Shown: piece after piece, positions 28,257 to 34,935 of the stretch | Position numbering within the stretch: position 1 is the first letter of the stretch | How the letters are laid out: the number at the start of each line of letters is the position of its first letter | DNA from: Sphingomonadales bacterium | Lineage (GTDB): Bacteria; Pseudomonadota; Alphaproteobacteria; Rhodobacterales; Rhodobacteraceae | Length of the DNA stretch: 48,318 nucleotides | NCBI GenBank assembly: GCA_014763785.1 | Contig: JACXUS010000003.1 | Coordinates: forward strand, 1-48,318 | Direction of reading: 5' to 3' | Notes under the pieces: generated by a model | Told to the model about the DNA's origin: nothing | The model's database searches: none | Seen by the model: only the letters and a program-made list of their open reading frames with translations | Position numbers and translations under genes: made by a program

Positions 28257-28343
28257 TCGCGCGGCGACCCCGGCGACGGGTCCGCGATCGGGATCGGGTT
28301 TGGGAGGACCCGTAACGAGAGCCAACCACAAGCTGAAATAAGA

Positions 28344-28370
28344 AACGGGGGGCATCTGCCCCCCGTTTTC
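28344..28370 (+). terminator. Strong intrinsic terminator between the small ORF and infB
   Basis: AACGGGGGGCA-TC-TGCCCCCCGTT followed by TT C; last gene before it on the plus strand is the 45-aa ORF. Confidence 0.8.
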
Positions 28371-28420: not shown

Positions 28421-30958
28421 TTACAGGGTGCGCTGCACTTCCTCGCGCTCGAAGATCTCGATGACATCGCCTTGGCGGATATCGTCGTAGTTCTCGAAGG
28501 CCATACCGCATTCCTGACCCGAGATGACCTCTTTCACCTCGTCCTTGAAGCGTTTCAGCGTCTTCAGCGTGCCCTCGTGGATCACCACGTTGTCACGCAG
28601 CAGACGCACGCCCGCCGAGCGACGCGCCACACCTTCGGTGACCAGACAGCCCGCAACCTTGCCGACGCCCGAAACGCGGAACACTTCCTTGATCTCGGCA
28701 TAGCCGATGAAGTTCTCGCGGATCTCGGCCTTCAGCAGGCCCGAGGCAGCGGCTTTGATATCGTCCACCAGATCGTAGATGATCGAGTAATAGCGGATCT
28801 CGACGCCCTTCTGGTTCGCGGCCGCCCGCGCCGGCGCATTGGCCCGCACGTTGAAGCCGATGACCGGCGCGCCCGAGGCTTCGGCCAGGCCGATATCGCT
28901 TTCGGTGATGGCGCCCACGGCCGAATGCAGCACGCGCACGCGCACCTCTTCGTTGCCGACCTTCTCCAGCGCCTGGGTGATCGCCTCGGCCGAGCCCTGC
29001 ACGTCGGCCTTCACCACCACCGGCAGCTCCGAGACGTTCAGATCGGCCTTGGCCTTGGCCATCAACTGCTCCAGCGAGACGCTGGCACCGGCTGCGGCGC
29101 GTTTGTCCTTGGCGACCGAGATCCGGTAATCGGCGATCTCGCGGGCCTGCGCTTCGGTCTCGACGACGTTCAGCACGTCACCGGCTTCGGGCGTGCCGTT
29201 GAGGCCCAGAACCTCGACCGGAACCGAGGGGCCGGCCTCGTCGACGCGGTCACCCTTGTCGTTGATCAGCGCGCGGACCTTGCCCCACTGCTCACCCACG
29301 ACGAAGATATCGCCGCGTTTCAGCGTGCCGTGCTGCACCAGAACCGTCGCGACCGGGCCGCGGCCCACGTCGAGCTTGGCTTCGATCACCGCGCCCTGCG
29401 CCGCGCGCTCGGGGTTGGCGCGCAGCTCGAGGATCTCGGCCTGCAGCGCGATCGCCTCCAGCAGCGCATCGAGCCCCTTGCCGGTCTTGGCGGACACTTC
29501 GACGGTCTGCACATCGCCGCCCATTTCCTCGACCACAACCTCGTGCTGCAGCAGGTCGGTGCGGACCTTCTGCGCATTGGCGCTCGGCTTGTCGATCTTG
29601 TTGATCGCCACGATCATCGGCACCTTGGCGGCCTTGGCGTGGTTGATCGCTTCGATCGTCTGCGGCATCACCGCGTCATCGGCAGCCACGACCAGCACGA
29701 CGATATCGGTGACCTGCGCACCGCGCGCCCGCATCGAGGTGAAGGCCGCGTGGCCGGGCGTATCGAGGAAGGTCAGCTTCGCGCCCGATTCGGTCGTCAC
29801 CTGATAGGCGCCGATATGCTGGGTGATCCCGCCAGCCTCGCCCGAGACCACATTCGCATGCCGGATCGCATCCAGAAGCGAGGTCTTGCCGTGGTCGACG
29901 TGGCCCATGATCGTGATGATCGGCGGGCGCGAGACCAGATCCTCGGGCTTGTCCTTGACCGTGTCGATCACCTGCTCGACATCGGCATCCGAGACGCGCA
30001 CCGCGCGGTGGCCGAATTCCTCGATCACCAGCTCGGCGGTATCGGCGTCGATGGTCTGGTTCGCGGTGACCATCATGCCCATCTTCATCAGCGCCTTGAC
30101 GACATCGGCGCCGCGCTCGGCCATCCGGTTCGCCAGTTCCGAGACGACGATCGTCTCGGGCAGCTGCACGTCACGCGCCTGCTTCTCGGCTTTCTGACCG
30201 AAGCCCATGCCCTTCTGACGCGCCTTTTCCTGCTTGCGCTTCATCGCCGCGAGCGAGCGCTGACGCCCGCCTTCGCCCTCGATGTCGCTCAGGCTCAGCT
30301 TGCCGGACCGGCGGCCATCGTCGCCCTTGCCCTTGCCCTTGGCATCGCGGTCGCCCGCACCGGGGCCGGCGCGCTCGTCGCGGTCGCGGTCGGTCTTGCG
30401 GGGCCCGGTGGCCGAAACGCCCTTGGTCGCGGCCCGCGCCGCTGCAGCCTCGGCCGCCGCCGGATCGGCAGGCGTCGCCGGGGTGGCGGCTTTCGGGGCC
30501 TTGCGGACCTCTTCCTTCTTCTTCTCGCGCAGCTCGGCCTCGCGGGCCTTGCGCTCGTCTTCCTCGGCCTTCAGCCGCAGCGCTTCTTCGCGCTCGCGCT
30601 CTTCGCGCTCCTTGGCTTCGATCTCGGCGCGGCGGCGCTCACGCTCTTCCTCGCGGGCCTTTTCGTCGGCGGCGCGTTGCGCGGCTTCCTCGACCTCGCG
30701 GGCCTTCGCGGCCTGAAGCGCCTTCAGGCGGCGCTCCATCTCGGCGTCGGAAATCCCCGCGGGGCGCTTCGACGGATCGCCCAGCGCCGGGTTGCCACCC
30801 GGCTTGGTGCCGCCCTGCCCCGGCTTCGGCACGACCACCTTCTTGCGCTTGGTCTCGACCACCACGCTTTTCGTGCGGCCATGGGAGAAGCTCTGCTTCA
30901 CCTGACCGGGCCGCGCGCCGCCAAGACCCAAGGGTTTTTTGCCGTCCGTATCGTTCAT
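28421..30958 (-). CDS. infB: Translation initiation factor IF-2
   Basis: 845 aa; charged N-terminal region, [27 protein letters not shown]. Confidence 0.99.
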
Positions 30959-31584
30959 GCCGTCTTCGTATCCTTCAAGGCGGTCTTGCCGCCGTCCTGC
31001 TTGCGCAATCCCGCAAGCCTTGCCGCTTCCTGTATAACACGCGGAGTGAGTCCGCCAGCCGCAAGCGCGCCGTGTATGGCATGATCGCGGCCGAAAGCCA
31101 AACCCAATTCAGAGCTGGTGAGGCAACCGAACCATCGGGCCCCCTCGGGGGTCCAGAGCTTGCCCTTGCCGCGCTCGGATCCGTCCGAGGCCTGAAAGAG
31201 CACCTTCACGCGTCCCTCCGAGAGCCAGCCCTTGACCTTCTCGAAGCCGATGACCGCCTTGCCGGATTTCCGAACCAGAGAGATAAGCTCGATCACGCGA
31301 TGGGCAAGGCCCTGTTCCACGAGATCGGCCAGATTTTCCGGTGCCTTTGCGGGGGCCTTGGCGGCCCGCGCGAACAGCCCCTTGGCCGCGGCCTTCTCGA
31401 TCGCCGCCCGATCGGCGGTGACCCAGATGCCGCGACCGGGCAGTTTCTCGGCCAGATCGGGATAGATCAGCCCATCGGGGCCCAGCACGAAACGCACCAA
31501 GCCAGCCTTGGGCTGCACGTCACCCGTGACGATGCAGCGCCGCTCCGGCAGCTCGTTCGTTTTGTCCTGGCCCCCGCGGGTCAT
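30955..31584 (-). CDS. YlxR/DUF448-family RNA-binding protein
   Basis: Start [49 protein letters not shown]; located between nusA and infB; ATGA overlap with infB. Confidence 0.88.
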
Positions 31585-31585
31585 C

Positions 31586-33190
31586 TTATTCCTCTTCCTC
31601 CGGCTCGATTTCGTCTTCCTCGGCCTCAAGCTCCGACGGATCGACCCAGCCTAGCTGAATCCGCGCGGTCATGATCAGCGCCTGCGCATCCTCAAGGCTC
31701 ATGTCGAATTTCTCGAGCAGCCCTTCGTCCTTCTGGCGCTGGCCATCGACCGTGGTCCAGCCACCGGCCAGTTCCCAGTCGGCGCAGGTCGCGAAATCTT
31801 CCAGCGTCTTGATGCCATCCCGGGCCAGCGCCTCGATCATCTGCGGCGTCAGCCCCTCGAAATCGAAGAGCGACTGTTCCACGCCCAGTTCCTTCGCGGC
31901 GGCGATCGCCTTTGCGTTCTGCGCCTCGATGAAGTCGCGGGCGCGGGCCTGCAGCTCCTGCGCGGTGCCTTCGTCGACGCCCTCGATCGAGAGCAGCTCG
32001 TCGAGGTCGACATAGGCCACCTCTTCGAGGTTGGTGAAGCCCTCGGCGACCAGCAGCTGGGCGAAGAATTCGTCCAGATCCAGCGCCTCGGCGAACAGCT
32101 TGGTGCGTTCCGCGAATTCGGCCTGACGGCGGCTCGATTCCTCGGCCTCGGTCAGAATGTCGATGTCGAGGCCGGTCAGCTGGCTGGCCAGACGCACGTT
32201 CTGACCGCGGCGGCCGATGGCGAGGCTGAGCTGCTCGTCGGGCACCACGACCTCGATCTTGCCGGCGTCTTCATCGACGACAACCTTCGAGACCTCGGCC
32301 GGTTGCAGCGCGTTCACGAGGAAGGTCGCCTGATCTTCATTCCACGGAATGATGTCGATCTTCTCGCCCTGCAGCTCGCCCACCACGGCCTGAACGCGCG
32401 AGCCGCGCATCCCGACGCAGGCGCCGACCGGGTCGATCGAATTGTCATTCGACACAACGGCGATCTTCGCGCGCGACCCGGGGTCGCGGGCCACGGCCTT
32501 GATCTCGATGATGCCGTCGTAGATTTCCGGCACTTCCATCTTGAACAGCTCCGCCATGAATTGCGGATCGGTGCGGCTCAGGAAGATCTGCGGGCCACGG
32601 GTCTCGCGGCGCACGTCTTTCACATAGGCGCGGATCCGGTCGTTCGGGCGATAGCTCTCGCGGCCGATCTTCTCGTTGCGGCGCAGGATGGCTTCGCCGC
32701 GGCCGATATCCACGATGATGTTGCCGTATTCCTCGCGCTTGACCAGACCGTTGATGATCGTGCCCTTGCGGCCCTTGAATTCCTCGAACTGGCGGTCGCG
32801 CTCGGCCTCGCGGACCTTCTGCAGGATCACCTGTTTCGCCGATTGCGCGGCGATCCGGCCCAGATCGACCGGGGGAACCTCGTCGATCACCTCATCGCCG
32901 ATCTGCGGATCGCTGAGATATTGCTTGGCCTGTTTGACGGTCAGCTCGGCCTGATAGTTCTCCAGCGCCTCATCCTCGACCACGGTGCGCACCCGGGTGA
33001 AACGCGCGCGGCCGGTCTTGCGGTCGATATGCACGCGGATGTCCATCTCGGCGCCATAGCGCGACTTCGCGGCCCGCGCGAGGCTGTCCTCCATCGCCTG
33101 GATCACCAGATCCGGGTCGATCATCTTCTCGCGCGCAACGGCCTCGGCCGTCTGCAGAAGTTCAAGCTGGTTGGCAGAGGTGATTGCCAT
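31586..33190 (-). CDS. nusA: Transcription termination/antitermination protein NusA
   Basis: 534 aa; S1/KH segments ([47 protein letters not shown]), acidic C-terminus. Confidence 0.98.
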
Positions 33191-33193
33191 CTC

Positions 33194-33808
33194 TCAGGTC
33201 TCCTCGTCGGGGGAATTCTGGCCGTCTTCGGGCGTTTCGTCGTCTTCGGTCTCGATCTCGTCGAATTGCTCTTCGTCGATGATCCCGGCATCCTTGCGCT
33301 GGCGCAGCATCTCGGCGATCAGCTCGTCGGTCAGCACCAGTTTCGCATCGGCGAGCCAGTCGAACTGCAGGCCGATGGTCACATCCTGACCCTGATCCTC
33401 GATCTCGATCAGCACCTCGTCGCCCTCGGTGCCGCGCAGCATCCCCTTGAAGCGCTTGCGCCCGTCGATCTGCTCGGTGGTCTCAAGGCGGACCTCATAG
33501 CCTTCCCAGGCGTCGAAATCCTTCAGCCGGGTCAGCGGCCGGTCGATCCCGGGCGAGGACACCTCAAGCGTATATTGCTCGGTGATCGGGTCCTCGACAT
33601 CGAGCACCGCCGACACCCCGGTCGAGATCGCCGCGCAATCGTCGACATTGATGCCGCCCTCGGGGCGGTCGGCCATGATCTGCAGCGTCGCATGCTTGCC
33701 ACCCTGCAGGCGGATGCGCACCAGCTCATAGCCCAGCCCCTCGATCACGGGGGCGACGATCTCGGCCAGGCGCCGGTCGATCGCAGTCTTGGCGATGAGA
33801 TCGCTCAT
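33194..33808 (-). CDS. rimP: Ribosome maturation factor RimP
   Basis: Start [42 protein letters not shown] motif; first gene of the nusA operon. Confidence 0.95.
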
Positions 33809-33825
33809 AGTTCCGGTCCTTAAAA

Positions 33826-33850
33826 CAAAAAACGGGCCCTTGCGGCCCGT
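33826..33850 (-). terminator. Intrinsic terminator/attenuator in the rimP-nusA-infB leader
   Basis: Minus strand ACGGGCC-GCAAG-GGCCCGT then TTTTT, 18 nt before the rimP ATG. Confidence 0.75.
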
Positions 33851-33904
33851 CACACGTTTCCGGTGGGTCCCGGGTTTGGACCCCGGCACGCCGCTGTTGA
33901 AGCG

Positions 33905-33933
33905 CATATAGGCCAAGCGGCCCGAGTCTGCAA
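33905..33933 (-). promoter_or_regulatory. Candidate sigma70-type promoter of rimP operon
   Basis: Minus strand TTGCAG (33933-33928), 17-nt spacer, TATATG (33910-33905). Confidence 0.55.
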
Positions 33934-33961
33934 GAAAAGACTTGCTGCAAGAAAAGACTTC
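33928..33961. repeat. Tandem direct repeat (2 x 17 bp) spanning the -35 region
   Basis: CTGCAAGAAAAGACTTG / CTGCAAGAAAAGACTTC, 16 of 17 identical. Confidence 0.95.
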
Positions 33962-33963
33962 GC

Positions 33964-34935
33964 TTAGGTCCGCAGCCGGTCCATCGCCGCGACCAGCGCC
34001 GCGCTGATCCCCGGCTCGCTGAGCGCATGGCCCGCGGCGGGCACCATACGCAGATTGGCCCGCGCCCAGCCCTGCGACAGCCGCCAGCTGGACAGCGGCG
34101 GGCAGATCATATCCATCCGGCCCTGCACGATGGTCGCCGGAATATGCTCGATCCGGTGCCGATCGCGCAGGATCTGGCCGTCCTGCTCGAGAAAGGCCGC
34201 ATTGCTGAAATAGTGATTCTCAAGCCGGGCAAAGGCGCGGGCATAATCGGGCGGCGCCTCGCCCGGCAGGCCATCGAAATCGACGCTGGCCAAGGCATTT
34301 TCCCACATCGCCCAGGATCGGGCAAAGCGCGCCTCTTCGGCATAATCGCCGGAGAAGAGCCGCTTGTGATAGGCCGCGATCAGATCGCCGCGCTCATCTT
34401 CCGGGATCGCAGCGGTGAAGTTCTGCCACAGATCGGGGAAGAACTGCCCCGCGCCGCCGCCATAGAACCAGTCCAGCTCGCTCTGCATTGCCAGAAACAC
34501 GCCGCGCAACACCAGCGCGCGCACCCGGTCGGGATGCGCCTCGGCATAGATCAGCGCCAGCGTCGCCCCCCATGACCCGCCAAAGACGACCCAGTCGCTG
34601 ATCCCCAGCGTCGCGCGAATCCGCTCGATATCGGCGACCAGATGCCATGTGGTATTGGCGGTCACCGACGCATGCGGACGCGACAGACCGCAACCACGCT
34701 GATCGAACATCACCACGCGGTAATGCGCGGGATCGAAGAAGCGCCGCATCGCCGGGCTGCACCCGCCCCCCGGCCCGCCATGGCAGACCAGAACCGGCAT
34801 CCCGTTCGGATGCCCCGATTGCTCGACATAGAGCCGATGCCCGTCGCCCATATCCAGCATGCGCTGATCGAAGGGCTCGATCGGCGGGTAAAGAAAGGCA
34901 CTGGCTGTGCGCTTTTGCCCTGCGGTTCTGTCCAT
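33964..34935 (-). CDS. pip: Proline iminopeptidase (alpha/beta hydrolase)
   Basis: Start [61 protein letters not shown]. Confidence 0.95.

Follow-up and report, generated by a model that had tools for sequence, protein, structure and literature searches.

The locus raises the question of how, and in response to what, genes for core transcription and translation factors are expressed from behind a strong terminator. On the minus strand of the window, by which we mean the whole 48,318-nt stretch of DNA analyzed, a leader of ~72 nt runs from a promoter to a strong terminator and stands before four genes, identified with Pfam in the order rimP (33194..33808; PF02576 and PF17384; ATG at 33808), nusA (31586..33190; NusA_N and KH domains), ylxR (30955..31629; PF04296, start codon uncertain), and infB, encoding IF2 (28421..30958; IF-2 domains). 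A likely ribosome-binding site for rimP, AAGGA, could be read from the sequence at 33817..33821, and upstream of the promoter the neighboring gene encodes an alpha/beta hydrolase and ends at 33964. The terminator T run ends 18 nt before the rimP ATG, leaving little room for a separate promoter. A sequence-only reading of this DNA had proposed an attenuator-like leader whose terminator must be read through to make NusA, and the promoter, the terminator, and their conservation all support that proposal. We consider it very probable, judging from sequence, that the element is a cis-acting attenuating leader of rimP-nusA-ylxR-infB. The same reading had seen no tRNA gene here, and ARAGORN indeed returned none in the 48,318-nt window, which also ruled out a metY-like tRNA remnant before rimP. 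Just past infB, at 28343-28368, a strong inverted repeat rich in GC is flanked on both strands by T-rich sequence and is possibly a two-way terminator closing the operon.

The promoter first described as TTGCAG-17 nt-TATATG was found exactly so on the minus strand. The -35 element TTGCAG (33928..33933), preceded by C, is separated by exactly 17 nt from the -10 element TATATG (33905..33910). Among 166 relatives, 154 had the arrangement TTG-17-TAT and none had a different spacer, as compared to 8 of 1780 random stretches having any such promoter, and the -10 element was TATATG or TATATC in 135 of those 154. A sigma-70 scan, which uses the consensus of E. coli, left the promoter unflagged at 7 of 12 matches. 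The distance from the -10 element to the sequence box that follows is likewise fixed among relatives. Transcription is predicted to start at A33898, so that the RNA would begin with AACAGCGGC.

The leader itself consists of three near-invariant blocks around a hairpin that varies. The first block, AACAGCGG at the 5' end, belongs to the near-invariant 5' box AACAGCGGC (33890..33898, minus strand, as are all the leader features), which is complementary to the arm and loop of the terminator. It is followed by Hairpin 1 (33867..33889), formed by CCGGG-GTCCAAA-CCCGG and lower pairs, in which six of seven pairs have changed on both sides among relatives, with 94% of cells paired. The initial reading had drawn a hairpin within 33860-33886 as GGGTCC/GGACCC, with CCGGG/CCCGG as the alternative. 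Both registers exist, but it is the latter that is conserved and covaries; the former appears in this species' predicted fold and is not kept among relatives. After the hairpin comes the ACCG motif (33861..33864), with an invariant ACC, for which two partners are available, the box CGG and a CGG at the base of the 5' arm of the terminator. Both pairings occur in predicted folds, and the invariance of the motif precludes covariation. The canonical terminator was as described, a hairpin ACGGGCC-GCAAG-GGCCCGT (33832..33850) recovered by sequence, terminator scan, and predicted fold and conserved in the family, with a T run at 33827..33832 at which transcription would be expected to end in vivo, giving the 3' end of the ~72-nt RNA. 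Its 5' arm and loop hold the third block, CGGGCCGC (33842..33849). The loop of Hairpin 1 (33875-33881) is GTCCAAA here, with GTCCACA or CTCCACC in its place among relatives. It looks like the anticodon loop of tRNA-Trp, and its DNA version like the DnaA half-sites named in PMC4287350; both resemblances are probably coincidence.

The sequence-only reading had made its case depend on both hairpins being conserved in relatives, and this was borne out, with covariation in Hairpin 1 and a conserved terminator. A covariance model built from 40 diverse leaders matched the window leader at E = 6e-25, no other place in the genome giving a comparable score, and matched 294 of 299 sampled family genomes (298 genera; Rhodobacteraceae/Paracoccaceae), nearly always in one copy. 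The rimP upstream regions of relatives carry the same element, and all 81 further regions fetched from relatives by their place matched the model. An independent pattern scan of named genomes yielded 120 loci, 111 of them with rimP immediately downstream in genera including Rhodobacter, Ruegeria, Paracoccus, Roseovarius, Leisingera, Shimia, and Gemmobacter; eight, mostly from unrelated bacteria, were without rimP and one lay too near a contig edge to tell. A pattern match in Salipiger pallidus (L168), with neither rimP nor nusA nearby, was set aside as chance. Five family genomes (G079, G093, G100, G678, and G683) gave no model match, G079 being also without a RimP match, and one genome (G013, contig C20) has a second, divergent rimP with its own leader of the same type, probably through assembly contamination.

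Model matches elsewhere in the Alphaproteobacteria were mostly chance, and among the best 24 non-family loci only L223, L227, and L230 lie beside rimP; these are distant versions of the leader in two other families (L223 in one, L227 and L230 in the other). The 5' end and the terminator loop of the latter two look complementary, as CGUCCG/CGGACG and CCGAC/GUCGG, with both sides differing between the species. Many rimP genes of other Alphaproteobacteria are preceded by a GTGGGCC...GGCCCAC-like terminator and a promoter-like stretch with no AACAGCGG box. Since these bacteria keep the terminator without the box, the terminator is old and shared, in agreement with Naville and Gautheret (PMC2965389), and the box and hairpin were added in the Rhodobacteraceae lineage.

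Attenuators before rimP are well known, rimP-leaders having been described as the commonest bacterial attenuator (Naville and Gautheret 2010, PMC2965389), a precedent not mentioned in the sequence-only reading. The present element lies directly upstream of rimP-nusA-infB and has the GGGc...gCCC stem and U run at 18 nt from the ATG, within the 4-130 nt from the gene start that defines the class, and in these features, as in its likely NusA feedback, it resembles the rimP-leaders of Firmicutes and Proteobacteria (PMC2965389). Those leaders were reported as a terminator only, with no larger conserved element outside some Gammaproteobacteria (PMC2965389), whereas here a conserved 5' box, a covarying hairpin, and ACCG precede the terminator and a possible antiterminator is predicted. 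The Rfam rimP family, RF01770, shares the gene context and the idea; a search of the genome with it at E 0.001 came back empty, as did one of the leader with E values as high as 10, while the E. coli control was matched. When the leader was searched against all of Rfam, whether under the gathering threshold or with E values of up to 10 allowed, the sole match was a chance one on the opposite strand. In B. subtilis, NusA has been shown experimentally to autoregulate its operon by stimulating termination in its leader (PMC12288461), and in E. coli two terminators, t1 and t2, precede rimP under NusA control (PMC6511841). Our leader is like the former in placing a terminator where NusA could control its own operon, although the NusA dependence is here deduced and a possible antiterminator is added. 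It is like the E. coli metY-rimP-nusA-infB operon (PMC6511841) in having a terminator before rimP and probable NusA feedback, but there is no tRNA gene and a single conserved promoter lies immediately upstream. We found no paper on a Rhodobacter rimP leader or sRNA. By its sequence the element belongs with the known rimP-leader attenuators, as a structured and lineage-specific variant not covered by any Rfam family; control of the NusA type is known, and the family-wide RNA design appears to be undescribed.

That design suggests a switch. An alternative structure in the leader had been noted before and exists, but the conserved one lies between the RNA 5' end and the terminator arm and loop, where GCGGC in the box is complementary to GCCGC within CGGGCCGC, and not within the hairpin. 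At least 5 bp of box-arm pairing were possible in 75 of 80 leaders as compared to ~14% for random loops. When growing transcripts of the window leader were folded, the box-arm helix was predicted at lengths of 58-66 nt and the terminator once 68 nt had been reached. For RNAs ending just past the terminator loop, the minimum-energy fold contained the helix in 163 of 168 leaders, versus 47% with shuffled boxes. In about half of the leaders the predicted folds also paired ACCG with the CGG at the arm base, a pairing absent from the window leader's own minimum-energy form; with it added, the whole 5' arm would be occupied and every conserved block would have a role. Pairing of ACCG with the box CGG instead would free the arm. 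We rejected this box-ACCG closing helix as an essential static helix, for it is nearly invariant but broken in CTG and ATG variants.

Further evidence came from leaders with altered boxes or loops. In a TGT-loop subgroup, the loop pairs instead with ACAG of the box, and the box CGG is lost in four of ten TGT-loop leaders as compared to two of 155 CGC-loop leaders (Fisher 1e-4, kinship ignored). When arms were permuted among the leaders with altered boxes, complementarity dropped (p 0.02 and 0.002), p values that are optimistic since the sequences share ancestry. Such subgroups, re-paired in another register, lend the box-arm helix moderate support. Among family leaders the helix showed no in-register covariation, so that its support consists of invariance, shifted registers, and energies; for this reason we call the antiterminator plausible only, and on these predicted folds we lean slightly toward its being functional. 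For the window leader the terminator fold is favored over the antiterminator fold by ~7 kcal/mol, and read-through would thus need kinetics or a factor.

The leader might instead work as in B. subtilis, where NusA-stimulated termination in the leader is precedented (PMC12288461), with NusA acting directly on the terminator, the antiterminator irrelevant, and the box and hairpin serving to bind a protein or protect the 5' end. To Naville and Gautheret most rimP-leaders appeared to lack an antiterminator (PMC2965389), and the box-less terminators of other Alphaproteobacteria and the missing in-register covariation of box and arm fit such plain attenuation as well. It leaves unexplained that the loop CGC is conserved only together with a complementary box, and it does not account for the TGT/ACAG subgroup. 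We regard it as somewhat unlikely.

Which gene the leader serves is indicated by a natural experiment. In one family genome (G082; L338, 339-4301), a gene of the RTX type, with an RTX calcium-binding repeat, separates rimP from nusA. There nusA is directly preceded by a promoter, leader, and terminator, all intact, whereas rimP retains its promoter and a leader that no longer matches the model and has an interrupted T run. This leader-nusA junction occurred only in G082 among 397 family genomes. As the leader stays with nusA while that of rimP has decayed, nusA is probably the regulated gene, the one needing the leader, on the strength of this single case. The link to NusA made in the sequence-only reading is likely in light of the split operon and of the B. 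subtilis and E. coli precedents, and we infer NusA to be the signal, probably the main input to attenuation by both sequence and analogy.

Attenuation could instead answer RimP, IF2, the state of ribosome assembly, or temperature. A signal of this kind would suit an operon whose products include factors for ribosome maturation and initiation and which in E. coli is cold-induced (PMC6511841). We consider it unlikely, because in the one genome with a split operon it is nusA that keeps the leader and rimP that has lost its copy, and because no ribosomal-protein leader or riboswitch family in Rfam matched. That the leader is mainly a trans-acting small RNA, from whose read-through rimP-nusA is expressed, would suit a compact, deeply conserved, single-copy unit with its own promoter and terminator, but is very improbable given that it invariably accompanies rimP (nusA in the case of G082), that no unlinked copies were found, the three second model matches inspected in family genomes (L421-L423) being ordinary terminators without a box, and that its apical loop is variable. 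The sequence-only reading had also offered a stable sRNA as a possibility; a separate function of this sort may exist but drew no support from the analysis.

The explanation we favor, and hold to be fairly probable on sequence evidence, is attenuation tuned by NusA with an antiterminator supplied by the RNA 5' end. Transcription would start near 33898, so that the RNA begins with the box AACAGCGGC, and Hairpin 1 would be the first to fold. As the terminator 5' arm emerges, the box would pair with GCCGC and ACCG might take the CGG at the arm base, forming the antiterminator. Emergence of the 3' arm would then allow the more stable terminator to displace it, and RNA polymerase would stop in the T run unless it had already escaped. 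NusA, by slowing the polymerase and stimulating hairpin termination, would tip this race; plentiful NusA would favor termination and less nusA-infB mRNA, and scarce NusA would favor read-through. For the question of how NusA acts on rimP-leaders outside B. subtilis, the Rhodobacteraceae leader offers a case: it is compact and strongly conserved, its candidate antiterminator is concrete and can be mutated, and a natural experiment points to nusA as the regulated gene.

The promoter may add a second layer of control. A GANTC (CcrM-type) site, GACTC, overlooked in the sequence-only reading, lies at 33924..33928 on the minus strand (~-30 to -26), between the -35 and -10 elements and overlapping the last base of the former. 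Of 149 aligned promoters of relatives, 55 have GANTC at this same offset, its first base being base six of the -35 element, and the next commonest offset occurs in seven. At the N position C, T, G, and A all occur, with GACTC making up 40 of the 55. The site is otherwise rare in the window, with 36 observed versus 235 expected (~6.5-fold depletion), and GcrA turned up in 17 of the 18 genomes of the genus, all but this 84%-complete assembly. Placed between -35 and -10, GANTC is the mark of cell-cycle-regulated promoters in Caulobacter, which become active at 40-60 minutes; in ctrA P1 it sits at -29 (PMC4287350). The rimP promoter resembles these GcrA/CcrM promoters in the placement of the site, but GACTC misfits their extended YGAKTCK motif (PMC4287350, PMC7987155). 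The fixed position and the depletion suggest CcrM/GcrA control of the rimP promoter, and we take cell-cycle control of the operon as a lead; a probable promoter of this type on a rimP leader appears to be undescribed. Should the site be functional, a large and ecologically important family of bacteria would couple its NusA and IF2 output to DNA replication. More tentatively, the whole could form a family-wide switch in which the first nine nucleotides act as antiterminator strand against the terminator 5' arm and loop, ACCG swaps partners between box and arm base, NusA level or polymerase speed sets nusA-infB expression, and a methylation-sensitive CcrM/GcrA promoter in many genera ties the operon to the cell cycle. 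The closest relative (L003) is without the 17-nt tandem duplication, AAGTCTTTTCTTGCAG(C), that spans 33928-33960 in the window and doubles the -35 element.
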